Of a stretch of DNA of 36,951 nt, positions 8,901-36,326 are shown piece by piece; the stretch's first letter is position 1; each line of letters opens with the position of its first letter. The notes beneath the pieces are model-generated. The model searched no databases and was not told the origin of the DNA. It saw only the letters and a list, made by a program, of their open reading frames with translations. A program made the translations under genes and the position numbers. Source of the DNA: a virus. Where the stretch lies: IMG/VR virus record IMGVR_UViG_3300017967_000078, positions 1 to 36,951 of that record; one strand, given 5' to 3'.

Positions 8901-11900
8901 CTCTTCAATCAGATTTTAACTATGTAAATAAAAGATTTGTTAATTTTGGTGATGGGGGCACTGGAACACACAATATCACCTACAGACCAATTGAAGTAAA
9001 ACTGGAAGCTCCTATTGGTGTAACAACAACATCGGGGCAGAATTTTGCAGCTAAAATTAGTCCAATATTTACGGGAGAAATTATCTCAATATCATTAAAG
9101 ACAAATGGCAACAACTATGGTGATGCTAGTATCTTAAATTATAACAGACAACCAAATATTCAACTTAACAGTGGAGTAAATGCACAATTAACACCGATTG
9201 TATCCGCTGCTGGTAGAATAATTGGTGTTATTGTCAATAATGTTGGTAGTGGGTATAATTCTCCACCAAACATTGAAATCTTAGGTTCTGGAGATGGTGC
9301 AGTATTGACTCCAGTAATTGAAGATGGTAAATTGACAGAAGTCAAAATTATTGAAAGTGGTTTTGGTTATAAACAAGTAGATACGATATTAAACGTAATT
9401 CCAACTGGTTCTGGAGCAACATTTACTGCCAAAATAAAATCTTGGTCTATAAACCTTGTTGAAAGAATTATACAAGCACAAAAAATTAATCCAGACGATG
9501 GTATTATTACATCAGCAATAACATCTGATGCTGGTTTACAATACACCCATGGTTATCTTGGTAGAGAACTGAGAAGAAAATTACTTTCAACTTCTCTTGA
9601 TAATGATGGTAATACAATTTATAGAGATGATATTGATAATGATACCAATTCCACATTATATCACTCACCTATTGTTGGTTGGTCTTATGATGGTCATCCA
9701 ATTTATGGACCATACGGATACGCCGATAAAGAAGGTGGAGCAATAAAAAGACTTAATAGTGGTTATAGTCTGATTTTGCCAGCAAATAGACCATCTACTG
9801 GAGATTTCCCAGCAGGCATATTCGTAGAAGATTATCAATTTGTTGGAGATGGTGATTTAGATATACACAATGGTAGATATTGTAAAACTCCAGAATATCC
9901 AAATGGCGTATATGCATATTTTTCTACTATAAATTCTACCCCAGAAGCAAGTGGACCATTAAATGGTTACTTAAAACCAGTTTTCCCATATGTTATTGGA
10001 GATAGTTATAAATCAAAACCTGTAGAATTTAATTTTAGTCAATTCTCCAGTTTAGACTACATTAATATAAATGATTCTGGTTGGACTAGGTATACTGGTA
10101 AATTAGGTCTTTTAAGTAATAGAACATCTTATTCTGGATTCTTACAACCAGATCAATTTGCAGAAGGGTTTACAGAAATAAGAAGTGTAACGCCTGGATC
10201 AGTTACTAAGTTAAATTTGGTTGCTCCTGGAGATAATTATTCTCTTGCGGATAGTGTTTTCTTTGATAACGTTGATACAAGTGGTTCTGGTGCATATGCA
10301 CGTATATCTGAACTTGCAGGAAAAACCGTTGATAGTGTTTCTTATGAGTTTGATTTACTTAAATCTGTTCAATTTGTACCATCAATATCTGACGGTAGAT
10401 TTATTGGAATTGGATCAACAGATCATAATTTAAAGAATGGTGATATTGTATCGATACAAAATTTAAACATATTATCAACAGAGTTTTCCAAATCATACAA
10501 CGTAGGAATATCTACAAATAACCTAACGTTATCAACAAATGTAGGAGACTCTGCTTCAAGTGGTATTGTAACTTACTTCAATGTAAGTGGTAACTTAGTA
10601 TTTCCAGCATTGTCGGTTAATGATCTTTATCTTATTGGAGATGAGACTGTAAAAGTATTAAACGTATATCAAGATGATTCTCGAATAAAAGTACAAAGAG
10701 CAATTAATGGAACAAGTGATCCACACTTTGCTGGATCAAACTTGAAGGAAAAAACTAGAAAATTAATTGTAAATACTGGATTTACAACATCTACAGAATA
10801 TCAATTAGATACTGAATATTATTTTGATCCTAGAGAATCTGTGATTATTCCATCAGAAAATCTTATTTTATATTCAAATCCAGTTCCGCCAGAATTAGTA
10901 TCTGCATGGGATTACTATACTGTCGGTGTTGGTACTGGAACGGTATCTTATTATTCTGCAACCGCTCCAGATGGTAGCAATGATGTTGCAAAGGTTTCTT
11001 TTGCATCAACAACGGGCACAGGAGACGGTTTTGGAATTGAGTATTCTTCAACATCTCTTTCAGCAACAAATCATACAATATCAGTATTTTTAAAGGGAAA
11101 TGCTGGTGGTGAAGAAGTTTATATTATAGTTGATGATGGATTGGCATATTATAGTTCAAAAGTTACCCTAACAAGATTTTGGAGAAGATATTCTTTCCAA
11201 GCATTTACTGGTTCTGGTAGTCACACATTAAAAATTGGTACATACGGTCCACAAACACTGACATCAAATACATCACCAACATTCTATGTTTGGGGTGCTC
11301 AAATAGAAACTGGAACTTTAAGATCAACTCTTTATGAGACTAATGGTTCTGCATTGTCAAGATCTGCGGATGTATCTGGATTATTGTCTTTGAGTAATCC
11401 TGGAGTGACTCAAAAAGAACTTATAAAATCAACAATTCATTCATTCTATTTACCATCTCATGGATTCAAAACAGGTGATTTATTAACTTACAATGTTGGA
11501 TCTGGATTTACTGGGGTAAAAGTATCCACAGGGACCACACAATTCCCCTTGGAAGATGGTACAAAGTTATATGCTGCAGTATATGATGCTGATTTTATTG
11601 GAATCTCAACTCAACAAGTTGGAGTTGGAAGCACTGGACAGTTTGTTGGCGTTGGATCAGAAGGATTACTGATCTATGATCTAGTTGACTATGGAACTGG
11701 TGAAATACATAGTTTTAATACTAACAAAACTTCAACTATTGTTGGCGATGTTTATAAAAAGTATGCTAAGGTTACTACCAAAATAAATCATGGATTAACA
11801 GAAGGTGATCAGATCGTATTTAATGCTGTTAGTGGAATTCAAACAACTGTTACTGTTGCTTATGATGATTTGAACAGAAGAATGGTTATAAACCAAAAAT

Positions 11901-14900
11901 CATTTATTGATTCTGATGTTGACATTGATAGAAATTCAATTACAATTCCAAACCACGGATTTAAAAATGGTGCAAAAGTAATCTATAATTCACCATCACC
12001 ATCTGTTGGTTTAACCAATGCACAGATTTACTATGTTATTGTTTTAGATGACAATACAATTTCTTTATCGGATTATTATTATGATGTAATTACCTCTAAT
12101 GAGAGTGTTCAAATAATCGATATCGAAACTCAATCTTTAGGATTTATTAGTGAAGTAAATCCTGAAATATTCTGCTATAGAAATTCTACCGTCATATTTG
12201 ATTTATCGGATCAAACATTAGCAGCAAATTCCTTGCCAGCATTTAACTTCTTCCTTTATACTGATGAAAACTTTAGTGATGAATTTTTTACTACAGAAGA
12301 AAATACTGGAGATTTTAACGTAAAAACAAGCGGAACTATTGGAGAACCAGGAGCAAAGTTAGAATTAATTATTGATGAGAACGTCCCAACTACATTGTAT
12401 TATAACTTAGAACCAATTAGATATAATGGTGCAGCAGCATCAAAACTAGAAATTATATCGGATAATTTTAATATAAAGAATCCAAATAAATTGAGTGTTT
12501 CTTACAGTAAATTTAATCTCAAAGCAAATGTAACTGGAGTAACTAGCGCAACATTTAATTATCCACTCTTAGATACTCCAGAGAAAATTTTATATCCAAA
12601 TAATGAAGCATTGTTGTCATATACAACAACATCTTTAAGTGCAATTGGACCAGTTGCAAAAGTTTCTCTGGATTCTATAGGAAGAAATTACAGAAAACTT
12701 CCAAACATTGCTGAAATTGTCAGTATTGGTGGAACAGGAGCAATTTTCTTACCAGCAAGTACCAATCTTGGTCAAGTTGATGAGGTAGTGTTAACTGATA
12801 TTGGTTTTGACTATCCCTCAGACAAAACGTTAAATCCAGCAGCACAGTTCCCATACACATACAAGATTGAACCACTTTCTAAATTTAGTCAAATTAAAAT
12901 TGTAAACCCTGGTATCAATTATTTTGTTCCACCACAATTAGTTGTTCTTGATGGTTTTACTGGAAGAGTTAACACCGAAGCATCTCTCAAATATGATATT
13001 GGAGATACTGAAGTAACCATTGTAAGAAATACAACAGGTTTGTATAACATTACTCCAAAAATTCTACCAATCAATAATCCAAATGGTATAAGAATTGATG
13101 ATATTACATACGATCCTGGTAACTATAATGTTACTATTGGATTTGCCGTCACATTCACAACAGCAGAAGATTATCCATTCAAAGTTGGTGATAAGGTTAT
13201 TGTAGAGAACACCAATATTGACGCAACTGTCAATGGAACTGGATACAACTCATCAGACTTTGGATATGCATTATTTACTTTGACCGCCATAGATCCAAAT
13301 ATTGGTGGGGAGACTCCAACTATTACGTATAACTTACAGGATTATTTAAAACCAGGTCAAGTTCCAGGTAATTTTGATAGTTTTGATTCATTTGGAACAG
13401 TTACACCAGAATCATACTTCCCACAATTTGATATTGATCTTGCAAAAGACTCATTTAGATCTGGAGAAATTATTGTTGCTCAAGATGATAATAGAGGAGT
13501 AGTTCAGTTCTATGATTTTAGAAACGAATATTTGAGAGTTAGATCTAAAATTCCATTTAAGGTTGATGATCTCATCATTGGACAATCATCACAGAACCAA
13601 GGATTAATTTCTAGTGTTGATGGAATATCTGGAAAATATTTGATATCGTCCAATAGTATTACTAAAAAAGGTTTCTTAAGAGATACTGGAAAACTTAATT
13701 ATGCATTCCAAAGAGTTCATGATAATGATTATTATCAGTACTTCTCTTATTCAATAAGATCCTCAATAGATTATAAGGATTGGAATCCTCTGGTAAGTGC
13801 TTTAACACATACTTCTGGATTCAAAAAATTTAGTGAATTGGTTATTGATTCATATGATCCCTCAATCGTTGGTATAACAACAGCACAAGATCTCAATGTT
13901 CTGATTGCAATCTCAGATTTGACTCAAGTTGTTGATTTAAATACAGTCAGAGACTTTGATATTGGTAGAGAAAAGAGTATTGATGTTAGTGGAGATTTGG
14001 TATCCAATGAAATCTTGTTTAATTTACCATTCCTTGCACAATACCAAGAATTTATAGGCAACAGAGTTCTTGCTGTTGATGACTTTAGTGATCAGTTTAA
14101 TGGTGAAAAGAGAGATTTTGAATTATTCTCAGACGGCAACAAAGTTTTTGAGATTGAATTTTCTGGTAATGATGCAACTAAAATATCAGTTGGTGAGGGA
14201 ACCATTGATATAACAAATCATTATTTTGTTAGTGGAGAATTGGTACAATATATCCCACCAAATAATGATTTTGCCAATGCAATTCAGATTACCCCAACAG
14301 ATTTTGGACCAGGAATTGGTACTACATCATTACTTCCATCACAATTCTATATTATCAAACAAGACAACCAAAAAGTCAGAGTTGCAACTTCAGCAACAAA
14401 TGCGTTGTTGTTTAACCCAATAGGTGTTGGATTAACTGGAGTTGGAATTGGATCTACTCATATATTCAGAGCAATTGAACCAAATAATAGAATGTTAATT
14501 ACAATCAATGGAACTATTCAGTCTCCAATGGTTGGAACCGCATATACAGTTGCTCTTGCATCCACAGCGGGCATTGGTTCTACTGTAATCGATATGGTTG
14601 GAGTAACATCTGTATTTGGTGGTGATCTTGTAAGGTTTGAAGATGAGGTTGTCTTAATTGCTGCGGTCGATAATGTAGCAAATACATTAACAGTGAGAAG
14701 AGGATGGATGGGAACTGCTGAAGTATCTCATTCCGCTGGTGTTGTTGGAACAAAGCAAGTTGGTAACTTTAATGTAGTTAACAATGATCTTCATCTAATT
14801 GAAGGTCCTTGGGGCAATATTCCAGTTGGACTTGGAACAACTGCGCTAAATTCTGGAGAGGTTGATTACACAGGACTTACAACAAGTTCTAGATTTAGTG

Positions 14901-17900
14901 GAAGAATCTTCTTAAGATCTGCATTAAACCAGGCATTTACAACAAGCTTCTTACCAGCATATGATAATAACTATGTTTATGATGATATTTCTGATCAATT
15001 TAATGGAATCAACACTTCATTCTATTTAAAATATAATGGAAATGACATTGATAATATTTCAGCACAAAATACAATTGTCTTAATTGATGATATATTCCAA
15101 GGTCCACAGAGACTTGGCAATGTATTAACAAATATTGAAGGAGATTACAAACTTGAAGGTGGTGGTGGTCAACTTCTCTTAGGATTTAATGGAGAAGTTA
15201 CAGATCCAAATAACCATAATGATATTAATGTAAATAGAGTTCCTAGAGGAGGTGTTATTGTTAGCGTTGCTTCAAAGGCGGGTTATGGTTATCAACCTTT
15301 AGTATCTGCTGGAGGAACAGCAGTTGTATCTGCCGCTGGAACAATAACAGCGATTGCAATAGGTAATACTGGATCTGGTTATAGATCTGGATTGCAAACA
15401 GTATCTGTTGGAATTGAGACTGCAAGTTATGGCGCTGCAAATATAACTGCAGTTGGTGTTGCTACTGTTGTTGATGGACATGTAATTGGAGTTGCTATTA
15501 CAAATCCACAAGTATTTTATGCACCTAGAGAAGTTGCAAATATTGGTTATAGTTCAGTAACTGGAATCACAACAGTAACAACATCCACTCCACATAATTT
15601 GTCTCTTGGCGATGAAGTTCAAGTGGTTGGTGCAGCATTCACATGTGATTACTATCCACCAGTAAATGTAACAAATGCTCTTTATGATAATGTAACTGGC
15701 ATTATGACAGTTACTGTTGGTGGTGCATCAACGCTTACAGTTAATGGATTCTTCTATGATAATGTTACTGGATTGGCGACTGTTACGACGGTAGAACCGC
15801 ATAAGTTCGTTCCTCAAACTGCTATAGGAAGAAGTTTCAGTCTTGCAGGATTGGCACTTACTTGCGTTGGGTATGGTCAAACATTTGGAGTATATGATTT
15901 TACTTATGACAATATAACTGGTTTAGCAACAGTCTTCACTATTGGGGATCATGGATTATCCAATGGTGAAACATTCAAGATGCGCGAATTGGCGTTTAAT
16001 TGTCCAGTTGGAGGACCTACAGGATATGGCCAAACGTTCACGATTACGCAGTTCCAGTATGACAATGTTACTGGTCTTTCTACAGTTACTACTTCTAGTT
16101 CTTTTATTGGCGTAATTGGAATTGGTAGTGATATTAGACTGGATAACCTTGAATTTACTTGCCCAGGTGGGTCTGGTATCACAACAACTATCTTCCCAGA
16201 TGGAACTCAAGGATACACATTTACTGTAACTAATATCATTGCATCCGATCAATTTGAGATTAATGTTGGACCATCAACAATTAGTCATACTTATGTTGAG
16301 AATGATGCTGGACAAGTTACTGCTGGACTTACTACATCAATATTCCCAGATGGAACTCAAGGTTATTTCTTTGATGTTGTTACAGTAGGGACCACAACAT
16401 CGTTTACAGTTAATGTTGGACCTTCAACTATTAGTCATACTTATGCATCTGGCGGCGTAATTCAAGTAGGTATTAATACTAACATATTCCCAGGCAACTC
16501 TGTAGTATCACCTCTTGGAGATATATTTGGAGTTCTCTCAGCACCAGATTCATACACACTTACATTTAATGCTGGAATTTCTACTATTCGCCATGAATAT
16601 GTGAGTGGTGGTTCACTAACAGTTGGACATAAATTAAAAGTTGGCACAGATGTAATTCTTACTGGTCTTGCATTTACATGCTCTTATGATGGCGGTGTTG
16701 GAATTCTTACTCACCCAAGAATAACAGACCCAACATATTGTGGAACACAAGTTACTAGAATGAATAGTCTTTATGACTTTGAAATTAATGTTGGTGTTAC
16801 CACTGCAGAATCTTTCTATAACTCTGGAGGAATTGTAGAGGAGATTATTCTTGCTCCTAGACAAATTAACAACTCACCAACAGGGCAAGATCCTGGTGCA
16901 AATGGAACTGCAATTACAAAAATTGTAGATGACTACACGTTTATTATCAACTCTGGTCCATCCCCATATACACACGCATACAAGCGTTGTGGAGAGGTCA
17001 GAAGACCCCTTGATGTTGTATTTGATGCCCCATTAACATATTACAACATTCCTTTAGTTTACCATCCAGGAGAGTCTGGATTTGGAACAGGGGCAACAGT
17101 AGACTTAGTTCCAAGTAATGATAGCACAATTCTCAATTTTGAAATTAATAATTTTGGATATGGTTATGGTTCTGGGGAACGCTTGACAGTAGCAATTGGT
17201 GGTACAGTTGGCATTCCAACGTTTGCAACCATAACATCAAATGCCGTTACACCTGTATTTGATGGAGCAAATTACTACTCAGTAACTGATGCAACATATG
17301 ATCCTGTAAGTGGCAATTCAACACTCACTATTGGTATTCATACATTAACTACAGCAGATACGGTTAGAATTGCAAATAAATCACTTCTCTTCAGATGTGC
17401 AAGTGATGATTATAGTGCAATTCTTGCTTACCCACGTCCTGGAATCGATAGCAACATTGCAAACCAAGATGTTGGAATTACATCATATACATCAACAACA
17501 ATTACAGTATTTGCTGGATCATCCCCAGTTGGAAAGCAGTTCCCACATACATTTGTTGGACTTGCAACATATCTCCCATTTGAATTAACTATTGATAGAA
17601 CCTTCCAGTCTAAGTTCTCTGGATGGAACGTTGGTGAATTTATTGTTCTTGATGAAATTGATCCATTCTTTAACGGCGCAAGAAGATTGTTCCCGCTGTC
17701 AGTTAATGGTGAAAGTATTTCATTCTTTGCAAAAGCAAACTCTGGAATCAACTTACAATCAAACTTACTTGTATTTGTTAATGACATTCTTCAGACACCA
17801 GGAGAGGGTTATCAGTTTAATGGTGGTAGTACATTAAGATTTACAGAAGCACCCAAAGGTGGCGTTAGTGGATTTAGTACCACAGGAGATAAAGCAAAAA

Positions 17901-19492
17901 TCTTTATGTATACTGGAACTCAAACAATTGACGTTCGTACTGTAGATGTTCTCCCCTCTGTTGAAGTTGGTGATGAAGTTCAACTTTATAGTAATGTTGA
18001 CACCACATTTACACAAGATCCAAGACTTGTAATGGATATTAAAGCAGCAGATAAGGTTATCACAAATAACTATGCTGGGCAAGGTGTAACTCTGAATGAA
18101 TTGTTTGAGAGACCATTATCTTGGACAAAACAAACAGTTGATAAGATTATTGACAACAACTACATTGGTAAGGATCGTGTTTATTATGAACCAATAATCA
18201 ATCCATCAACAAATATAATATCAAATGTTGGATTGGCAGATAGTTCTGTTTATGTTTATTCCATAAGACCATTATTTGATAATCCTTTTGAGGGTATTTC
18301 TGTTCAAGATAGATCAGTAATTGAAATTATATCTGGAGATGAATTAGTACCAGCAACTGTAGATGCAGTTCTTGGAGTTGGTGGATCAGTATCAAATCTT
18401 CTTATAACAAATCCTGGTTATGGTTACACATCAACTCCAGATGTTACCATACAAAAACCATATGATAATGGAACTCAAGCAATAGGTGGTCTTACTATTG
18501 GTGCTGGAGGATCAGTCACAACAGCAACAGTAAGCACTGGTGGAACTAATTATTACTATGGACCACTTAAGGCAATGAGCCTCCAGCAACAAGGTTCTGG
18601 ATTCCCACCAGTAGATACAAATACAAACTTCTTTAGATCAGCAAGATTAAAAACAGAAAGTGGTATCGGATTTGGTGCAGTTGCTGATATCGAAATCAGC
18701 ACAATAAACTTTAATGTTGCTTCGTTCAGTGTTCTTGAAGGTGGTACTAATTATCAAGTTGGTGATACTCTATTTGTTGATACATATGATAATGTTGGAC
18801 TAGCAACTACATCAAGAAAATGGGCATTGGGAGCACCAATCAAGTTTAAAGTTATTGAAATAGAACCACCAGAGGTGTTAGTCGCTCCACCAAAGAGAGC
18901 AGTGGAAGAGTGTCAATTCATAACATTTGAAGGAGATTATGGAATAATTGTTGGTGTCGGAACTACGACCATTGGTGCTGGAACAAGTTTAGGTGTTGCT
19001 TTAGACCTCTTTATTCCATTTAATTCCGAGATTAGGGAAGGTTTATCTATAACTTTACCAGGAATTACTACTGGTGATCTCTTTAACATAACTAAAACCA
19101 ACTTTATTGGGGCAGCACAAACTTCTCTTGGTGCAGATGGGTCTATTGTTGGTGTATCAACTATACATGCAGACATGATGTGTGAGTGTATTGATTACTA
19201 TACAAAACAGTCCGTAGTTCCAGCAGGAATAAATGGTCTTGGAACGACAGTTGGATTTGGAACAACCGTTACTACAGTAATTATCTCACTTCAGAGTGCT
19301 GGTGCTAATAATGTAGTTGGATTGGGAACTACTGCATACTATGGTGAATATACATGGGGCAAAATTGGACTTCCAGTTAGAACAACTAACCAAGTATGGA
19401 ACTCTAATCATGGAGTATCTCAAGCTGGAATCGTAACAAATCCAGTGATAAGGAGAAAGAATCCTCTTAAATATCTTGGTTATTTGAACTAA
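5984..19492 (+). CDS. Giant gp7-position baseplate/tail protein (4502 aa)
   Basis: One uninterrupted 13.5-kb frame between gp6 and gp8, the T4 gp7 slot. Residues about 1-240 resemble the C-terminal part of T4 gp7: FVEFLRAYYKDLE near the start, then IAEIYKKYKRMY and KNAVARLKDFYASKG (from 183). The rest is a beta-rich mosaic: GxGY modules near 896, 1088, 1125, 2232-2307, 3129, 3724, 4144; a YHYH motif with GWSYDGHPIYGPYGY at 1226-1245; a jelly-roll or CBM-like domain at about 1625-1796 (ends FYVWGAQIETG); RGxxGT modules near 90, 1545, 2880; DQFNG modules near 2700, 3000, 3890; and YDN(V/I)TG and IFPDGTQGY tandem repeats at about 3180-3550. It probably anchors in the wedge and extends outward as a host-contact structure. 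AAGG precedes the ATG at good spacing. Anchor role: inference from the recalled gp7 similarity and synteny. Confidence 0.85.
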   Translation: MDNRVKIQNLVQDQVPDFVSDSYPEFVEFLRAYYKDLESPGSPLDIVNNIDQYTQLNNVSEIVYSTELTSSVGYSTKSIEVTSTEGFPPRDGLVQIGNEIIRYDTKTLTSFDGCVRGFVGFTSYVDNIDKFPTFLDSNKEPHSPGDTVFNLNSLFIAEIYKKYKRMYAPGFDNVQFYEEVNEKNAVARLKDFYASKGANSSFDLLFRLIWGVDVKVVKPRDFLIQPSDADYRITRDLVVKPLLGDPQDLVNRTLFQDETTTIQNASGTITDVEQIFRSNEVYYKMSLDYNPDLETFVFSVHPKTKITNPVGAGQTYLDVDSTLSFENEGTLVFYDNDVEYQIQYSGKNTTQFFGLQSPIAIPLNADITTPDYAYATDDDGNEIRVKVTGVLGELVYDREKSYYYQVGDQIQIVSLGSDSEDQNVTSWVLNSTPEYEIEQLTQVALKLNGAAQYRVRTYDPHIFTLGDIGTVKGSDGNQYDVFVIAVSDRYEFDINLTTQVNTTSVKYNIRKGISKANSVNNPELNIFSSNVSNVYIKDNDRYVTSNSLPDYYNTPITIEDLSVTFSGQFDGFDINIGTNGFITGDAIYYNYNNNIGLDIQEGQYFVYKANASTIRLATSRSNIRSGIFIRVFGTVFNNKFELLKFKDRIIKSQSLIRKFSHPIPYDNYEETITSPGNTGMFLNGVELLNYKSSDTLYYGKIEEIVVSSPGDKNYDIINPPVLSIDDNIGVGSSIFGSGAEGVCNVRGSLTKIDIIDKGFDYVEEPKVTISGGNGIGAEAKCKLSKITHSVSFNAGSLYENVNLSNNTIGFSTFHKFRDYEKVLYSSQSQTEIGGLVNDSIYFVKDLDGKTIKLYNTADDAIVGVNTINFTAYGDGLQKISAFEKKNVISSIEVISGGSGYTNKTLYFNEDHVDIYSNTIVYPNHGYTNREIVRISTDDTLPVGLNSTSEYYVNVVDSNRFKVAEYITVGIGSTLQSDFNYVNKRFVNFGDGGTGTHNITYRPIEVKLEAPIGVTTTSGQNFAAKISPIFTGEIISISLKTNGNNYGDASILNYNRQPNIQLNSGVNAQLTPIVSAAGRIIGVIVNNVGSGYNSPPNIEILGSGDGAVLTPVIEDGKLTEVKIIESGFGYKQVDTILNVIPTGSGATFTAKIKSWSINLVERIIQAQKINPDDGIITSAITSDAGLQYTHGYLGRELRRKLLSTSLDNDGNTIYRDDIDNDTNSTLYHSPIVGWSYDGHPIYGPYGYADKEGGAIKRLNSGYSLILPANRPSTGDFPAGIFVEDYQFVGDGDLDIHNGRYCKTPEYPNGVYAYFSTINSTPEASGPLNGYLKPVFPYVIGDSYKSKPVEFNFSQFSSLDYININDSGWTRYTGKLGLLSNRTSYSGFLQPDQFAEGFTEIRSVTPGSVTKLNLVAPGDNYSLADSVFFDNVDTSGSGAYARISELAGKTVDSVSYEFDLLKSVQFVPSISDGRFIGIGSTDHNLKNGDIVSIQNLNILSTEFSKSYNVGISTNNLTLSTNVGDSASSGIVTYFNVSGNLVFPALSVNDLYLIGDETVKVLNVYQDDSRIKVQRAINGTSDPHFAGSNLKEKTRKLIVNTGFTTSTEYQLDTEYYFDPRESVIIPSENLILYSNPVPPELVSAWDYYTVGVGTGTVSYYSATAPDGSNDVAKVSFASTTGTGDGFGIEYSSTSLSATNHTISVFLKGNAGGEEVYIIVDDGLAYYSSKVTLTRFWRRYSFQAFTGSGSHTLKIGTYGPQTLTSNTSPTFYVWGAQIETGTLRSTLYETNGSALSRSADVSGLLSLSNPGVTQKELIKSTIHSFYLPSHGFKTGDLLTYNVGSGFTGVKVSTGTTQFPLEDGTKLYAAVYDADFIGISTQQVGVGSTGQFVGVGSEGLLIYDLVDYGTGEIHSFNTNKTSTIVGDVYKKYAKVTTKINHGLTEGDQIVFNAVSGIQTTVTVAYDDLNRRMVINQKSFIDSDVDIDRNSITIPNHGFKNGAKVIYNSPSPSVGLTNAQIYYVIVLDDNTISLSDYYYDVITSNESVQIIDIETQSLGFISEVNPEIFCYRNSTVIFDLSDQTLAANSLPAFNFFLYTDENFSDEFFTTEENTGDFNVKTSGTIGEPGAKLELIIDENVPTTLYYNLEPIRYNGAAASKLEIISDNFNIKNPNKLSVSYSKFNLKANVTGVTSATFNYPLLDTPEKILYPNNEALLSYTTTSLSAIGPVAKVSLDSIGRNYRKLPNIAEIVSIGGTGAIFLPASTNLGQVDEVVLTDIGFDYPSDKTLNPAAQFPYTYKIEPLSKFSQIKIVNPGINYFVPPQLVVLDGFTGRVNTEASLKYDIGDTEVTIVRNTTGLYNITPKILPINNPNGIRIDDITYDPGNYNVTIGFAVTFTTAEDYPFKVGDKVIVENTNIDATVNGTGYNSSDFGYALFTLTAIDPNIGGETPTITYNLQDYLKPGQVPGNFDSFDSFGTVTPESYFPQFDIDLAKDSFRSGEIIVAQDDNRGVVQFYDFRNEYLRVRSKIPFKVDDLIIGQSSQNQGLISSVDGISGKYLISSNSITKKGFLRDTGKLNYAFQRVHDNDYYQYFSYSIRSSIDYKDWNPLVSALTHTSGFKKFSELVIDSYDPSIVGITTAQDLNVLIAISDLTQVVDLNTVRDFDIGREKSIDVSGDLVSNEILFNLPFLAQYQEFIGNRVLAVDDFSDQFNGEKRDFELFSDGNKVFEIEFSGNDATKISVGEGTIDITNHYFVSGELVQYIPPNNDFANAIQITPTDFGPGIGTTSLLPSQFYIIKQDNQKVRVATSATNALLFNPIGVGLTGVGIGSTHIFRAIEPNNRMLITINGTIQSPMVGTAYTVALASTAGIGSTVIDMVGVTSVFGGDLVRFEDEVVLIAAVDNVANTLTVRRGWMGTAEVSHSAGVVGTKQVGNFNVVNNDLHLIEGPWGNIPVGLGTTALNSGEVDYTGLTTSSRFSGRIFLRSALNQAFTTSFLPAYDNNYVYDDISDQFNGINTSFYLKYNGNDIDNISAQNTIVLIDDIFQGPQRLGNVLTNIEGDYKLEGGGGQLLLGFNGEVTDPNNHNDINVNRVPRGGVIVSVASKAGYGYQPLVSAGGTAVVSAAGTITAIAIGNTGSGYRSGLQTVSVGIETASYGAANITAVGVATVVDGHVIGVAITNPQVFYAPREVANIGYSSVTGITTVTTSTPHNLSLGDEVQVVGAAFTCDYYPPVNVTNALYDNVTGIMTVTVGGASTLTVNGFFYDNVTGLATVTTVEPHKFVPQTAIGRSFSLAGLALTCVGYGQTFGVYDFTYDNITGLATVFTIGDHGLSNGETFKMRELAFNCPVGGPTGYGQTFTITQFQYDNVTGLSTVTTSSSFIGVIGIGSDIRLDNLEFTCPGGSGITTTIFPDGTQGYTFTVTNIIASDQFEINVGPSTISHTYVENDAGQVTAGLTTSIFPDGTQGYFFDVVTVGTTTSFTVNVGPSTISHTYASGGVIQVGINTNIFPGNSVVSPLGDIFGVLSAPDSYTLTFNAGISTIRHEYVSGGSLTVGHKLKVGTDVILTGLAFTCSYDGGVGILTHPRITDPTYCGTQVTRMNSLYDFEINVGVTTAESFYNSGGIVEEIILAPRQINNSPTGQDPGANGTAITKIVDDYTFIINSGPSPYTHAYKRCGEVRRPLDVVFDAPLTYYNIPLVYHPGESGFGTGATVDLVPSNDSTILNFEINNFGYGYGSGERLTVAIGGTVGIPTFATITSNAVTPVFDGANYYSVTDATYDPVSGNSTLTIGIHTLTTADTVRIANKSLLFRCASDDYSAILAYPRPGIDSNIANQDVGITSYTSTTITVFAGSSPVGKQFPHTFVGLATYLPFELTIDRTFQSKFSGWNVGEFIVLDEIDPFFNGARRLFPLSVNGESISFFAKANSGINLQSNLLVFVNDILQTPGEGYQFNGGSTLRFTEAPKGGVSGFSTTGDKAKIFMYTGTQTIDVRTVDVLPSVEVGDEVQLYSNVDTTFTQDPRLVMDIKAADKVITNNYAGQGVTLNELFERPLSWTKQTVDKIIDNNYIGKDRVYYEPIINPSTNIISNVGLADSSVYVYSIRPLFDNPFEGISVQDRSVIEIISGDELVPATVDAVLGVGGSVSNLLITNPGYGYTSTPDVTIQKPYDNGTQAIGGLTIGAGGSVTTATVSTGGTNYYYGPLKAMSLQQQGSGFPPVDTNTNFFRSARLKTESGIGFGAVADIEISTINFNVASFSVLEGGTNYQVGDTLFVDTYDNVGLATTSRKWALGAPIKFKVIEIEPPEVLVAPPKRAVEECQFITFEGDYGIIVGVGTTTIGAGTSLGVALDLFIPFNSEIREGLSITLPGITTGDLFNITKTNFIGAAQTSLGADGSIVGVSTIHADMMCECIDYYTKQSVVPAGINGLGTTVGFGTTVTTVIISLQSAGANNVVGLGTTAYYGEYTWGKIGLPVRTTNQVWNSNHGVSQAGIVTNPVIRRKNPLKYLGYLN
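15680..16450 (+). repeat. Tandem repeats within the giant gene
   Basis: YDN(V/I)TG followed by a T/V strand recurs four times (near 15688, 15752, 15904 and 16057). Then a 150-bp unit is present twice with high identity: ATNTTCCCAGATGGAACT at 16190 and 16340, and GTTGGACC(A/T)TCAAC at 16264 and 16414, both offset exactly 150 bases (50 residues). A diverged third copy follows (IFPGNS near 16483, GISTIRHEYVSGG). It indicates in-gene duplication of a beta-strand module. Confidence 0.8.
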
Positions 19493-29817: not shown

Positions 29818-31218
29818 ATGGCACTAAATCCTTTCTTTTTACACGGATCTTCTGGAGAACAGAATCTAGTACAAGATCTGGTCAACGAACATATAAAAAT
29901 GTTCGGGGTAGAAGTATATTATATGCCAAGGATCTATGTAAATGAAAAAACGATCATGGAAGAAGTTTCCAGATCGGAATTTACTTCTGCTGTTCCTTTA
30001 GAGGCATATGTAGAAACATTCGATGGATTTAGTGGTGCTGGTACTCTGCTATCAAAGTTTGGGGTTCAAGAAATTGATGACCTTACTATCATAATATCAA
30101 AAGAACGATATGAAACTGTAGTTCAACAGCAAATAGCAACTATTGCCAATACAAAGTTAACAAATAGACCAAAAGAAGGTGATTTGGTTTACTTCCCATT
30201 GGGAGATAGATTATTTGAAATTAAATATGTAGAACATGAAAAACCATTTTGGCAACTTCAAAAAAATTATGTTTATGAATTGAGATTAGAACTCTTTGCA
30301 TACAATGATGAAGAAATTGATACTGGTATCAATCAAATTGACGACAATGTAATTGATGAAGGATATATTCAGACCTTTAATATGGTTGGTGTTGGATCTA
30401 CAGCAACTGCTATTACAAGTCTCAGAGATGGTGCAGTAAGAAATATTGTAGTATCTAGAAGAGGATCTGGTTATGATGAAGTACCAAGAGTTGCAATAAC
30501 ATCAGCACCAAGCGGTGGATTAACTGCCGTTGGAATTGCATCAATGATTGGTGGAATTGTAGATCTCTGCGAATCAAGTCCAGATAAACTGAGAGTACAG
30601 CGTGTTGATGTTGCTGATCCAGGATTTGGATACACAACTGCACCTAGGGTAACTTTCCATGGTGGTGGTGGAAGTGGTGCATATGCTACAGCAAATATTG
30701 CTGATAGAACAATTGGTATTGTAACAATTACAAGTGGTGGTAGTGGATATATTGGTATTCCAACAGTAACTGTTGTAAAACCAGGAATTGGAAGCACAAC
30801 AATTGACGCTAGGGTAACAGCGAGAATTTCTGGATTTGGTACAATCACAGAACTTATCATCGAGGATGCTGGTGGATATTATGAGGGAGTTCCTCAGATC
30901 ATTATTGCTGGTCCACAACAAAATGTAGGTTATGGTACATATTTACTGAATGAGGACGTTGTTGGTGCAGCAAGTAGTGCAACAGCAAGAGTAAAAGATT
31001 GGAATGCCACTACTCAGGTTCTGAAGTTGGGAGATATAATTGGAGAATTCCGAGGTGGAGAAGCAATTGTTGGTCAAGCAAGTGGAGCATCATATGCAAC
31101 AATCGCCATAAATAAATTTAATGTCCCAGAAGACAAGTTTGCACAGAATGATACTATTGAATTAGAGGCAGATCAAATCCTTGACTTCAGCGAATCTAAT
31201 CCATTTGGTATCCCATAA
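29818..31218 (+). CDS. 14: gp14 neck protein with inserted repeat domain
   Basis: A 466-residue gp14 homologue; T4 gp14 is 256. The N-terminal about 180 residues are canonical: MALNPFFLHGSSGEQNLVQD, FGVEVYYMPRIYVNEKTIME, and EGDLVYFPLGDRLFEIKYVE with HEKPFWQLQKNYVYELRLE. Residues about 204-365 are an insertion of four GxGY-type modules (near 217, 269, 309 and 352, each followed by PxVxI), giving a beta-rich knob. The C-terminal part returns to family sequence (APEDKFAQNDTIELEADQI-like, ending SNPFGIP). In the virion, gp14 joins gp13 below the portal, so the insertion probably decorates the neck. It starts four bases after gp13. Confidence 0.9.
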   Translation: MALNPFFLHGSSGEQNLVQDLVNEHIKMFGVEVYYMPRIYVNEKTIMEEVSRSEFTSAVPLEAYVETFDGFSGAGTLLSKFGVQEIDDLTIIISKERYETVVQQQIATIANTKLTNRPKEGDLVYFPLGDRLFEIKYVEHEKPFWQLQKNYVYELRLELFAYNDEEIDTGINQIDDNVIDEGYIQTFNMVGVGSTATAITSLRDGAVRNIVVSRRGSGYDEVPRVAITSAPSGGLTAVGIASMIGGIVDLCESSPDKLRVQRVDVADPGFGYTTAPRVTFHGGGGSGAYATANIADRTIGIVTITSGGSGYIGIPTVTVVKPGIGSTTIDARVTARISGFGTITELIIEDAGGYYEGVPQIIIAGPQQNVGYGTYLLNEDVVGAASSATARVKDWNATTQVLKLGDIIGEFRGGEAIVGQASGASYATIAINKFNVPEDKFAQNDTIELEADQILDFSESNPFGIP

Positions 31219-32213: not shown

Positions 32214-32636
32214 ATGAAGGATAAATTTAGCGAGTTAAATGATACTTTTGAAGTGGAAGCAGAAATTGTGAAACCAGAAACTGAAAAGAAAGAACTAGTA
32301 AAACCATCACAAAAAGAAGATGTAACTAAAGATTATGAGTACACAAGGGGCAATCTTTATTCAATTATTGAGAAGGGACAAGAAGCATTAGATTGTGCAT
32401 TGGAACTTGCTCAAGATGGTGGTCAACCAAGACAATATGAGGTTGTTGGTCAGTTAATTAAAAATGTTGCAGATGCAACAGACAAGTTAATTGATTTGCA
32501 AAAAAAATTAAAAGATTTAGATGCAGAGCAAAAAGGTCCTACAAATGTGACTAATAATGCAATGTTCTTTGGATCTACTGCTGAGTTGTCTAAAATGATT
32601 AAGGCACAAACTAAAAACCTAAAGGAAGATAAATAG
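32214..32636 (+). CDS. 16: gp16 terminase small subunit
   Basis: A 140-residue homologue of the T4 DNA-packaging initiator gp16 (164). A disordered acidic N terminus is followed by a helical hairpin core: NLYSIIEKGQEALDCALELA, then PRQYEVVGQLIKNVADATDK and LIDLQKKLKDLD, the conserved central coiled coil. The C terminus (NNAMFFGSTAELSKMI) is typical of cyanophage gp16. It recognises phage DNA and stimulates the gp17 motor. It begins two bases after gp15. Its stop overlaps a late-promoter octamer, and gp17 does not follow within the window. Confidence 0.9.
   Translation: MKDKFSELNDTFEVEAEIVKPETEKKELVKPSQKEDVTKDYEYTRGNLYSIIEKGQEALDCALELAQDGGQPRQYEVVGQLIKNVADATDKLIDLQKKLKDLDAEQKGPTNVTNNAMFFGSTAELSKMIKAQTKNLKEDK
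32628..32635 (+). promoter_or_regulatory. T4-type late promoter for the post-gp16 block
   Basis: GATAAATA overlaps the gp16 stop codon. Initiation near 32641 gives a leader of about 16 nt before ATG 32657, similar to the promoter-to-start spacing at gp8 and gp25. It implies late co-expression of the following genes with the virion proteins. Confidence 0.65.
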
Positions 32637-32656: not shown

Positions 32657-34831
32657 ATGTCCCGTAGTTTTGAGATAGACCCCCAAAAATTCAGAAGAGA
32701 CGCTCGTGCCGCAAAGGTGAGAAACCTTGTGAAGGGTGGTGCCACTGAAGGAGAAAGGATGGCAGCACAGAGAAAAACAACTGGACCTGCTTTGCCAAAA
32801 GGATCAATTAAAAAGGGAATGAATCCCAATGAAGAAGTTGTCCCTGGTCTTAAAATAGTTGACATCATTCTTGGTGAGCAAAAGTGTGGCAAAGGTATGT
32901 ACTACTGCTACACAGATAAGAAGTGCAAAAAGATACCTGAAGGTTTAAAAATGACCGCCAGATTTAGTGGTGGAGATAAAGAACCAGAGGAAGTTGGAAT
33001 TGATACTCCAACTCAAAATGGTGGAGACACTAATGGTAAAGGTGGTGATTTTGGTGAAGGACTTTCTATTGAAGATGCTTTTGGTAATAAGTTCATGGAA
33101 GTAATTGATCTGATCAAACCAGAAGATGTTGTTGAGAAGTGTTGGGCGGGTTATACCCAAAAGGGTCTTAAGAAAAAAGGTAAAAAGATGGTCCCTAACT
33201 GTGTTCCAGTTGGTGAAGAAAAAGATCATGAAGTATCCATGGCACAATCACAATTAGCAAGTGCTGCTAAGGATATTAAGTCACTCAAAAAGAGTCTTGG
33301 TAAAAAAGAAAAAAATCTCCCTGCATGGATGCAAGCAAAGATTACTGATACTGAGCACAACATGAACGCTGCAGCAGGTTACACTAACAAAGAGGAGACC
33401 GAAATGCAAGAAGCAAAAGTAGATGCTGGATTAACTGACAAAGAAAAAGCAAAAGTTAGAACTGCAAGACAGGGTTATGCAGGTGCAGAACTTCGTGTTG
33501 GTGGGAATGTAAGTTCTCATACTGGAAATGTTGCAAGAAGAGCAGCACATAGAAAAACAGATGATATGAATAAGGACAAGAAAGATGTCCGTAGAGGTAA
33601 GACTAGTGGACCTCAGTTCCAGGGAAAAACTGGAGCAGAGCGTCTCGCTAAGGTGAAATCGGAACTTGGTGAGGCAGTAAGACTTCCATCAGAATTTGGT
33701 CATATTATGGCAGTTGTTGTGATGTGGAGAGGTAGGTCTTACCATATCAGAATGTTCTTCCCCCAGGCAAAGATGCCAACTAAAAAGGAAGCACAACTAG
33801 AAATTGAAAAGGTATATCCTGGTGGAAAAGTTATTAGTGTAGTAAGAAGCGAACTCCCAAGTCAATCTGCTCCAATCAACTCACCTTTGTTTAAGGTGAC
33901 TAAGGAAGAGAAAGAAATGGGTTGTCCCAAATGTGCTGGTAAGTGTGGTAAAGGATGTGAATGTGAGTGCCATGGTGAAGAGAAAGAAGTTGATGAAGCA
34001 GCAGGTGAAAAAGATGCTTGCTACAAAAGGGTAAAATCTCGTTATAGTGTATGGCCAAGTGCATATGCATCAGGAGCATTATCTAAGTGTCGCAAAGTCG
34101 GTGCTGATAATTGGGGCAACTCTACCAAAGAAGAATTTGAGTATGAATTGAATGAAGGATGGGTGGCAAATACTGCTGCTCAGTATTTCATTGAGCAAGG
34201 TCTTAACGAAGAAGGTGTAGCAATCCTCACCGAAGAGATGGGTCTTGATGATTTTGTGGAGTTTGTATTTGATCTTGGTGAAGAGACCATGCTCACAGAA
34301 GCAAGAGCAGGTGGTGTTAGGGTTGAACCAGTTACCGCAAAGGGAAAACCTTTTGCTAAGGGCAAACCAACAGGTAAGTCTTTAGAGAGACTCCGCAAAC
34401 TAAAAGCAGAGAGAAGACAAAAAGAAGCAGACGCATCTGCAGCAAAACCTTCAGGAATGAAGGCAGCACTTCAAAGTCAGTCTAAGACTGCTAAAAAGAG
34501 AGATCAAGCAGTTAGAAGTGCCAAGAGTCAACAACCTAAGAAGAGAGGCATTCTTGATAAGGTTGCTAAGCAAGTTCTAAAGGGTATTGATCGCCATAAT
34601 GCTGCAGTGGCGAAAGCAAAGAGTGATATTAAGACTACTAAAAAACTTGCTGGAGAAACTGGTAAAACTATTGCGAAAGCAGCAGCAGTAACTCATGAGG
34701 CAGGTCGTCGTGCTGGCGAATCTAAAGTTGGACAAGCAGTTAAGAAGGTGGGTGGTGCTGCAATTAAAGCAGGTGTTGCAAAAGCTAAGAAAGATATTGA
34801 GTCTTTAAAAAATAAAAAAGGAGACAAGTAA
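32657..34831 (+). CDS. Mosaic, probably processed internal virion protein (724 aa)
   Basis: No single family covers it; it looks like joined micro-domains. In order: CGKGMYYCYTDKKC (C77, C84, C90); CWAGYTQKGLKKKGKKMVPNC (C162-C182), a motif frequent in T4-like phages; a helical Lys-rich segment; a domain at about 340-400 (HIMAVVVMWRGRSYHIR, YPGGKVISVV) paralogous to the 106-residue gene at 36006; a Cys knuckle (C423, C426, C430, C434, C436, C438); KDACYKRVKSRYSVWPSAYA (from about 453), another widespread phage motif; and a Lys/Arg/Ala-rich tail (550-724). gp21-like sites (M/L)xE before A occur at 252, 339 and 548, near domain borders. A DNA-associated head-interior protein is my inference; an assembly scaffold is an alternative. 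Confidence 0.75.
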   Translation: MSRSFEIDPQKFRRDARAAKVRNLVKGGATEGERMAAQRKTTGPALPKGSIKKGMNPNEEVVPGLKIVDIILGEQKCGKGMYYCYTDKKCKKIPEGLKMTARFSGGDKEPEEVGIDTPTQNGGDTNGKGGDFGEGLSIEDAFGNKFMEVIDLIKPEDVVEKCWAGYTQKGLKKKGKKMVPNCVPVGEEKDHEVSMAQSQLASAAKDIKSLKKSLGKKEKNLPAWMQAKITDTEHNMNAAAGYTNKEETEMQEAKVDAGLTDKEKAKVRTARQGYAGAELRVGGNVSSHTGNVARRAAHRKTDDMNKDKKDVRRGKTSGPQFQGKTGAERLAKVKSELGEAVRLPSEFGHIMAVVVMWRGRSYHIRMFFPQAKMPTKKEAQLEIEKVYPGGKVISVVRSELPSQSAPINSPLFKVTKEEKEMGCPKCAGKCGKGCECECHGEEKEVDEAAGEKDACYKRVKSRYSVWPSAYASGALSKCRKVGADNWGNSTKEEFEYELNEGWVANTAAQYFIEQGLNEEGVAILTEEMGLDDFVEFVFDLGEETMLTEARAGGVRVEPVTAKGKPFAKGKPTGKSLERLRKLKAERRQKEADASAAKPSGMKAALQSQSKTAKKRDQAVRSAKSQQPKKRGILDKVAKQVLKGIDRHNAAVAKAKSDIKTTKKLAGETGKTIAKAAAVTHEAGRRAGESKVGQAVKKVGGAAIKAGVAKAKKDIESLKNKKGDK

Positions 34832-35554
34832 ATGAAGACATTCTCCCAATTTATTACAGAAGCAACATCTAGAAAACCGTCTGTTCAAAGAGCTCCTGAT
34901 ATGTCTGCCCGTGCTAGGCAACAACGTCAAGCACGAGATGATAGAAGACAAGCAGCAAGAGACCGTGCCGATGACAGAGCAAGGGCAGGTATTGATGCAT
35001 TAATTGGTTCAGATGATGAGCGTGCTGCTGCAAAGCAAGCAAGGCAAAATCAAGCAGCAAACCAAAAGAAATTAAGACAAAAAGCAACTCGTGACCGCAT
35101 GGCAGCAGCGGCAGAAAGGCATGGACTTGGTGAGAAGATGAATCTCGCTAAAGCAGATATGGGTGATGTTATCAAAGACTTCAGAACGTCTGATGCTCCT
35201 CAATTTAAAGGTAAGTCAGACAAAAAAATCCGCCAAATGGCAATTGCCGCTAAATTGGAAGCAGAAAGAGGTGACCAAAAAGAAGATTGGCAAAAGGTCA
35301 ATCGTAAAGATAAAACAGATGGATTAAGTCAAAAGGCGGTCAATGCTTATCGTAAAGAGAACCCAGGTTCTAAATTGAAGACTGCTGTCACAACTAAACC
35401 TTCTAAACTTAAGAAGGGGTCCAAAGACGCTAAGCGTAGATCTTCATTCTGCTCCAGGATGAAGGGTATGAAGAAGAGACTGACCTCTGCAAAAACTGCA
35501 AGAGATCCAGACTCCAGAATCAATAAAGCACTTCGTCGTTGGAATTGCAACTGA
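34832..35554 (+). CDS. Basic protein with capsid-targeting-like leader
   Basis: A 240-residue protein with an AAGGAG ribosome site, starting right after the preceding stop. Residues 1-11, MKTFSQFITEA, closely match the T4 internal-protein capsid-targeting leader (MKTYQEFIAEA as I recall it), with ITE before A as a gp21-like cleavage site. Residues 20-100 form an Arg/Ala/Gln/Asp-rich helix, probably coiled coil. The C-terminal third has a phage-typical module: GLSQKAVNAYRKENPGSKL, KRRSSFCSRMKGMKKR and a final ALRRWNCN. The protein is strongly basic, consistent with contact with packaged DNA. Packaging into the prohead is inferred from the leader; a scaffold role is the alternative. Confidence 0.75.
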   Translation: MKTFSQFITEATSRKPSVQRAPDMSARARQQRQARDDRRQAARDRADDRARAGIDALIGSDDERAAAKQARQNQAANQKKLRQKATRDRMAAAAERHGLGEKMNLAKADMGDVIKDFRTSDAPQFKGKSDKKIRQMAIAAKLEAERGDQKEDWQKVNRKDKTDGLSQKAVNAYRKENPGSKLKTAVTTKPSKLKKGSKDAKRRSSFCSRMKGMKKRLTSAKTARDPDSRINKALRRWNCN

Positions 35555-36009
35555 TGAAAACATTTAACCAGTTTATCTCAGAAGCAAGTGAGGGTGGTTC
35601 TCCATATAGAGAATATAAACCCAAACCACAACCAAAACCTTCTCAACCTCCAGAAGGATTTGATGCTTTTAAGAAAAAATACTTGAAGAATAAAAATGAT
35701 GAAAAAATCGAAGAGGGGCGCAAAAGTGGTGATTATTCTTTGCGTGACTGGTTTGCTAAGAGTCGCTCTTCTGATGGCACCCCTGGTTGGGTTCAACTGG
35801 GTGGTAAATACGCAGGAAAACCCTGTGCAAAACAACCAGGACAAAAAACCAAACCAAAGTGTGGTTCTTCAAAAATGAAGCGCAACCTCTCTAAAAAAGA
35901 AGAGGAGAGTGCATTTAGAAGGAAGAACAAAAAAGACAAGAATCCAAATCGTAAAGGTAAACCAATTAACGTTGCTACTGAAGTTAAAAAGAAGAGGAAG
36001 AAAAAATGA
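35554..36009 (+). CDS. SLRDWF-module protein with capsid-targeting-like leader
   Basis: The start is ATG 35554, overlapping the previous stop by one base (TGATG); an upstream TTG at 35539 would add only five residues of the neighbour's sequence. 151 residues. The leader MKTFNQFISEA repeats the pattern of the gene before and gives ISE before A. After a Pro-rich linker (KPKPQPKPSQPPEG) comes SGDYSLRDWFAKSRSSDGTP (SLRDWF at 62-67) and GWVQLGGKYAGKPCAKQPG, then PKCGSS: a module seen in many T4-like phages and some large eukaryotic viruses (I recall a DUF5872-type label but am unsure). The tail is extremely basic, ending KKKRKKK. Probably a DNA-binding internal protein. Confidence 0.75.
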   Translation: MKTFNQFISEASEGGSPYREYKPKPQPKPSQPPEGFDAFKKKYLKNKNDEKIEEGRKSGDYSLRDWFAKSRSSDGTPGWVQLGGKYAGKPCAKQPGQKTKPKCGSSKMKRNLSKKEEESAFRRKNKKDKNPNRKGKPINVATEVKKKRKKK

Positions 36010-36326
36010 AAAACTTTAAACAGTTTATGTCAGAGTCAGTAAATATTTCTGGTGACTTTAATGGCAACCTTTATATCAACTCCCAACAAGAACAACCCCA
36101 AGAAGTTGGTGAGAGTTATGTTGCAGATGTAATGTGGAAAGGAAGTCTATATAGACTTGAGATGGTTACTAAAACTGGTCTACCATCAAAAAGAGAATTA
36201 GGTGAACAACTCCAGCAAGAATATCCAGGAGCTATTGTACATAACATTTATCCAGTAGAAGAAAAGAATTTTAATATTAAAAATGCACAGAGGTATCATC
36301 CCTCAAAACTAGAATGGATTGATTGA
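36006..36326 (+). CDS. Small protein with capsid-targeting-like leader (106 aa)
   Basis: The start overlaps the previous stop by four bases (ATGA), so the two are probably translationally coupled. Residues 1-11, MKNFKQFMSES, are a third version of the leader, with MSE before S as the possible cleavage site. A short beta stretch (NISGDFNGNLYINS) and a Gln-rich linker follow. Residues 38-88 (YVADVMWKGSLYRLEMV, then PSKRELGEQLQQEYPGAIVHNI) align with residues about 348-398 of the 724-residue protein upstream. Function unknown; shared leader and shared domain tie it to this cassette. Confidence 0.72.
   Translation: MKNFKQFMSESVNISGDFNGNLYINSQQEQPQEVGESYVADVMWKGSLYRLEMVTKTGLPSKRELGEQLQQEYPGAIVHNIYPVEEKNFNIKNAQRYHPSKLEWID

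Follow-up and report, generated by a model that had tools for sequence, protein, structure and literature searches.

Is the 724-residue protein encoded directly behind gp16 in this virus a precursor that the prohead protease cuts into small head proteins? The window, meaning the whole stretch of DNA that was analysed, is 36,951 bases long and makes up an entire IMG/VR virus record, apparently a fragment. Its packaging, neck and tail genes are of T4 type (gp8, gp14, gp15 and gp16, from Pfam and PHROG matches), and the source is a marine T4-like phage. The genes concerned are listed below, with an arrow for the cut in known and candidate sites.

32214-32636, + strand: gp16, terminase small subunit, directly before the 724-residue ORF (Pfam/PHROG)
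32657-34831, + strand: 724-residue mosaic ORF, putative polyprotein (PHROG 3477, PHROG 727)
34832-35554, + strand: 240-residue ORF with leader MKTFSQFITE↓A (Pfam DUF6321, E 1e-14)
35551-36009, + strand: 152-residue ORF with leader MKTFNQFISE↓A (PHROG 727)
36006-36326, + strand: 106-residue ORF (PHROG 1742) with leader MKNFKQFMSE↓S; a second, internal motif, VGE↓S, lies ahead of its domain

Profile searches matched the 724-residue protein to PHROG 3477 (E 2.2e-38) and PHROG 727 (E 2.1e-24), both catalogued as of unknown function. The Pfam search returned no family at E ≤ 1 and so no Pfam enzyme domain, and neither Pfam nor PHROG indicated scaffold homology. Relatives in named cyanophages occupy the same interval between gp16 and gp17. 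All three small ORFs downstream carry T4-type capsid-targeting leaders, while the 724-residue ORF, which begins MSRSFEIDPQKF, has no N-terminal leader of the form MK.[FY]..F.xE, as the preliminary description of this DNA had said.

In the 106-residue ORF, VGE↓S directly precedes the domain, and relatives have VGE↓N or VDE↓K there. Elsewhere in the window, the gp14 neck protein (29818-31218) has extra sequence within residues 191-377 that matches tail-fibre and structural-protein PHROGs, and the baseplate region contains a single ORF of 4502 residues (5984-19492).

Candidate cut sites in the 724-residue protein

T4 gp21 cuts after L/I-x-E (PMC9026906). The preliminary description had named three sites of this kind in the 724-residue protein, with the cut after residues 252 (MQE↓A), 339 (LGE↓A) and 548 (LTE↓A). 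All three are found there, but the list was incomplete; it lacked two further matches, at 447 (VDE↓A) and 500 (LNE↓G). The sites at 339, 548 and 500 have L or I at P3 and a small residue after the cut, while 447 has V and 252 has M at P3. Taken by itself, the motif excess in this protein is marginal: [LIM]xEA occurs three times against 0.80 in shuffles of the same protein (P = 0.044) and [LI]xE[AGS] four times against 1.46 (P = 0.059).

Conservation was counted over 24 deduplicated aligned rows from 33 aligned relatives, which came from an IMG/VR scan (61 loci); Φ stands for L, I, M or V.

33050-33061, + strand: possible site FGE↓G after 134, at the front of the SIEDAFGNKF module, with Glu in 20/21 rows
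33404-33415, + strand: claimed site MQE↓A after 252; ΦxE↓[AGS] in 6/17 rows, the weakest of the three claimed
33665-33676, + strand: site LGE↓A after 339; ΦxE↓[AGS] in 21/22 rows, the best supported
33989-34000, + strand: site VDE↓A after 447, absent from the preliminary description; ΦxE in 21/23 rows, ΦxE↓[AGS] in 16/23
34148-34159, + strand: possible site LNE↓G after 500, within a predicted helix; 4/7 rows
34292-34303, + strand: site LTE↓A after 548, at the border between module and basic tail; ΦxE↓[AGS] in 8/12 rows

The site at 339 is present although the upstream sequence of the relatives cannot be aligned. The site type at 548, L[TS]E↓AR, precedes two different basic tails. At residue 134 the P3 residue is hydrophobic in 10 of 21 rows and ΦxE↓[AGS] occurs in 5 of 21. 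On these comparisons the best-supported predicted cuts are those after 339, 447 and 548, with 500 plausible; of the sites first proposed, 339 and 548 hold, 252 is the least conserved and 447 has to be added.

A further match, IPE↓G after residue 95, was rejected, with Glu retained in just 8 of 23 rows. Shortly before the YYC Cys module, LGE↓Q at residue 74 (32876-32878) has Glu in 22/22 rows and ΦxE in 21, with A, G or S at P1′ in none of them; it is possibly a further, non-canonical border.

Could these be chance motifs in a protein rich in Glu and Ala? The 724-residue protein alone gives P values of just 0.03-0.06, and IPE↓G after 95 is such a chance match. Against this, ΦxE↓[AGS] at 339 and ΦxE at 447 are conserved in nearly all rows, and the enrichment described below was replicated in fresh loci. 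Chance is possible for 252 and already unlikely for 339, 447 and 548; as an account of the whole pattern it is extremely improbable.

Motif enrichment across the family

The discovery set comprised 109 non-redundant mosaic proteins (270 ORFs reduced by identity) from at least 153 loci and the window. In these proteins [LIMV]xE[AGS] occurred 300 times against 143.7 in shuffles (2.09-fold), compared with 203 against 220.0 (0.92-fold) in 190 ORFs taken from these loci as controls. Decoy motifs showed little of this: 0.68-fold with a non-hydrophobic P3, 0.89-fold with Asp replacing Glu and 1.08-fold for the reversed motif. With leaders excluded the counts were 278 against 139.6, and 77 of the 109 proteins lay over expectation and 27 under.

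A fresh set was drawn from the best 80 further loci; 39 of its 80 members overlapped the discovery set, 21 proteins were kept and the remaining members were dropped as redundant. The motif was again enriched in these 21 proteins (70 against 30.8, 2.27-fold), with decoys at 0.58-0.84 except [LIMV]xxE[AGS], which reached 1.49-fold.

Remnants of whole leaders, sought as F..F[LIMV]xE inside mosaic proteins, were not generally enriched (2 against 1.56 in the discovery set, 0 against 0.34 in the fresh set), and we rejected the idea that they record gene fusion in general. Single examples are found in L137 and in S-SZBM1_194 (L156), a 707-residue protein encoded between gp16 and gp17 whose internal TYREFIAE↓G resembles a whole T4 capsid-targeting leader.

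Two gp22 scaffolds showed an enrichment close to that of the family (21 against 8.6, 2.43-fold). This fits a core- or scaffold-like protein whose gp21 pieces, as with T4 gp22, gp67 and gp68, would be mostly waste that leaves the head rather than functional cargo; in T4, gp22 and other core proteins are broken down to multiple fragments, most of which are removed (PMC9026906). The position of the sites and the separate life of the modules bear on this reading and are taken up in the next two sections.

Position of the sites at module starts

The alignment starts of relatives cluster at about residues 187-189, 329-339 and 441-453 of the 724-residue protein, and no clusters of starts were seen among the relatives at 252, 500 or 548. 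The preliminary description had placed its three sites close to domain borders, which is borne out at 339 and finds no counterpart in a start cluster at 252 or 548. Family-wide, an alignment start is no more than two residues away for 141 of 268 ΦxE↓[AGS] sites, compared with 749 of 2259 other Glu residues (odds ratio 2.2). The other Glu residues are themselves raised near alignment starts (0.33 against 0.23 for D/K/Q/N) because the linkers are acidic.

Two modules were examined residue by residue, with counts that are not independent since the contexts share ancestry. For the module that begins at residue 340, 35 upstream 12-mers were reduced to 17 contexts, each less than half identical to the others. 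Glu stands at P1 and A, G or S at P1′ in 17/17, and L, I, M or V at P3 in 16/17, compared with 1/17 each at P2 and P4. Eight of nine fresh contexts (from the best 80 further loci) fit this pattern, the ninth being a false match of the search pattern. For the DUF6321 (DWQ) module, Glu occupies P1 in 30/30 contexts; its junctions are less canonical, as P1′ is Asp in 30/30 and P3 is L, I, M or V in 18/30 only. Judged by sequence comparison, the site pattern across the family is real, specific and located at module borders.

Acidic ΦxE↓A linkers might also be inherited joints of a domain-shuffling family that are never cut, or docking peptides for the scaffold. The linkers do resemble one another (EEVxVDE) and may spread with the modules through recombination, a small P1′ residue is missing at some junctions, and Glu in general is enriched near borders too. 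Inherited joints or docking peptides fit less well with the finding that the linker is fixed at positions −3, −1 and +1 alone and cannot be aligned elsewhere, and with the lack of enrichment for ExΦ, ΦxD and non-hydrophobic decoys. The sites moreover coincide with the leader cut sites of stand-alone genes, and we consider uncut joints or docking peptides quite unlikely.

Stand-alone genes and chained modules

The 240-residue ORF starts MKTFSQFITE↓ATSRKPS. In three related loci (L007, L014 and L017) its sequence is fused in frame downstream of a 724-residue-type protein, with the junction SDLDE↓ATPRPKA or SELDE↓ATPRPKA, and the alignment begins exactly at P1′. The leader cut site equals the internal linker site for at least four module types. 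The SLRDWF module has VYE↓S and INE↓S in leaders and SVDE↓S and others internally; the W(S/T)xKYK module has FQE↓ in its leader and MNE↓, MRE↓ and INE↓ internally; and the DWQ module has IHE↓D in its leader and xxE↓D internally. The module therefore has a cut-like N-terminal site both as a gene and in a chain.

Eight phages with small genomes (Pelagibacter, Prochlorococcus and Planktothrix phages) carry DUF6321 as a small gene of its own. No S77 protease was matched in any of the eight (8/8), and neither a targeting leader nor a Glu immediately preceding the domain is seen in any of the lone proteins (0/8). A lone DUF6321-type protein (Greip_gp45, L160, 301-552) is annotated 'Gp114 RecA-like recombination protein'.

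These observations tell against the core- or scaffold-like reading, which we regard as rather unlikely: the modules, which are conserved and either folded or Cys-rich, are also encoded separately behind leaders, the DUF6321 module stands alone in phages that gave no S77 match, and the sites are located at module borders.

Predicted fragments and structure

Cutting at the sites above would give the following fragments.

32657-33412, + strand: residues 1-252, 27.6 kDa, five Cys, YYC-type and CW-type Cys modules
33413-33673, + strand: residues 253-339, 9.3 kDa, pI 10.3
33674-33997, + strand: residues 340-447, 12.1 kDa, small β-β-α-β domain and a Cys cluster
33998-34156, + strand: residues 448-500, 6.0 kDa, DACY...VWPSAYASGAL module
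34157-34300, + strand: residues 501-548, 5.4 kDa, acidic helical module, net −12
34301-34828, + strand: residues 549-724, 18.5 kDa, pI 10.8, net +34, 46% K+R+A

Additional cuts after 134 and 187 may divide fragment 1-252. The proposal that a domain of residues 340-400 starts right after a site is borne out, as this domain begins directly after 339, and the Lys/Arg/Ala-rich tail likewise follows a site, with the net charge of +34 listed for the fragment after 548.

The full-length AlphaFold model has a mean pLDDT of 42.7 and is of little use for borders, because 533 of 724 residues fall below 50. In this poor model residue 500 lies inside a predicted helix and 548 close to a helix end. Modelled alone, the 340-module gave a β-β-α-β fold from residue 345 or so to 394 (block mean pLDDT 80-94). 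Just before this confidently predicted domain runs a low-confidence linker, which contains the site after 339. The linker placement for which the preliminary description had proposed a structural check is seen at 339, while 548 sits near the helix end. The first structure alignment contained 28 of 29 listed relatives, with the truncated L006 omitted.

The same description had called the 340-domain a paralogous small domain. It is a paralogue of the 106-residue ORF at 36006-36326 (hhalign probability 94.5%, E 8e-8, with a near-identical copy of that ORF left out of the alignment). Sequence searches with the family profile and with a lone DUF6321 protein matched no solved structure, and the fold search with the 340-domain found none among solved structures (best E 0.25); in the viral library its best match was the S-SCSM1 virion protein.

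Protease and virion evidence

A gp21-type S77 protease (PF03420) is encoded in seven of ten related contigs, including that of L004, which carries a 79% identical relative, and in all five T4-like isolates. The gp21 gene of the source virus is not in the 37-kb record, itself apparently a fragment. Read from sequence, the gp23 leaders of T4-like isolates appear to end in LxE↓ (ILNE↓T, ILME↓S and LLTE↓A), and the protease of the clade therefore looks T4-like.

Family members are reported from purified virions of two isolates. The record of S-SCSM1 ORF29, a 517-residue mosaic protein that includes IEE↓S and VSE↓G, bears the label 'virion protein'; we take the label as detection because 45 virion proteins of S-SCSM1 are reported from mass spectrometry (PMC9602691). 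Two S-CREM2 proteins whose genes sit between gp16 and gp17 were detected in virions, gp136 with eight unique peptides (24.1% coverage) and gp137, which has LEE↓AVRL and MNE↓DWQ, with four (4.1% coverage; PMC10665884). S-SZBM1_191, _192 and _194 are absent from the inspected parts of the S-SZBM1 virion protein list (PMC9146016). Low or zero coverage in two virion proteomes, as far as the inspected parts extend, is what a core protein lost from the head would also give.

Proposed processing

Taken together, the 724-residue protein is probably a head-cargo polyprotein cut by a gp21-type (S77) prohead protease at module borders. Comparison gives good support to the original idea that head-protease sites separate the modules, with 252 a weak member and 447 missing from its list. 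One chain of small modules would be made from the ORF and enter the prohead core, where the protease would cut after hydrophobic-x-Glu at the borders; the evidence is best for 339, 447 and 548, followed by 500, 252 and perhaps 134. The products would be small proteins of Cys-rich and basic type, including the β-β-α-β domain and the +34 tail. The freed fragments would remain with the DNA in the head or be partly expelled, and would probably be ejected along with the DNA. Cutting of the sites by gp21, retention of fragments in the head and their ejection are all three steps that we infer.

A bolder version, a serious possibility that we hold tentatively, is that each cargo module brings its own gp21 site at its N-terminus and may equally be a stand-alone gene with a leader or a link in a chain. 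One recruited precursor could then deliver many small proteins in a fixed ratio to the head and later the host, as part of a module-shuffling polyprotein system of marine T4-like phages.

If this is true, it would account for a large class of proteins that are called 'hypothetical' in abundant marine phages: PHROG 3477, PHROG 727 and DUF6321 proteins would serve as precursors, and the work would be done by their cut products instead of the whole chains. The role of gp21 processing would widen from leader trimming and scaffold shredding to the release of many cargo proteins per gene. Head cargo would be seen to evolve by shuffling, and in the module-shuffling system tailed phages would have a polyprotein processed by a capsid protease.

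Comparison with known systems

The closest proteins are the PHROG 3477, PHROG 727 and DUF6321 proteins of cyanophages, which belong to the same family by profile; among the open-access papers listed by the searches, none described their processing or presented this mosaic family as a polyprotein that a prohead protease cleaves. Polyvalent proteins of phages and conjugative elements are also multi-domain chains, thought to be packaged and sometimes processed. As characterized in the part of PMC5512222 consulted, however, they are enzymatic and often have peptidase domains of their own, whereas the 724-residue protein has no Pfam enzyme domain and its presumed protease is a separate S77 enzyme; the Pfam search at E ≤ 1 showed none of the multiple enzymatic or DNA-binding domains that mark a polyvalent protein.

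In phiKZ and SPN3US, inner-head and ejection proteins are likewise cargo cut after Glu by the head protease (gp175 and gp245), and SPN3US proteins lose long propeptides through multiple cuts (PMC10052503). The cuts ascribed to gp245 in the consulted part of that account, besides the one in its own propeptide, yield N-terminal propeptides, unlike the separate modules predicted here. T4 gp22, gp67 and gp68 share with the 724-residue protein several gp21-type sites per chain, and the motif enrichment is near that of gp22, but no scaffold homology was detected for the 724-residue protein and its sites border conserved, reshuffled modules.

The T4 internal proteins IPI-III and Alt offer the nearest parallel in the nature of the cargo. 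They have short leaders, and processing of IPIII is inhibited when position 10 of its leader is Asp (PMC9026906); both systems combine L/I-x-E before a small residue with small basic head proteins, T4-type leaders being carried here by the neighbouring ORFs. T4, however, makes one protein per gene with a terminal propeptide, whereas here a leaderless chain has its candidate sites between modules.
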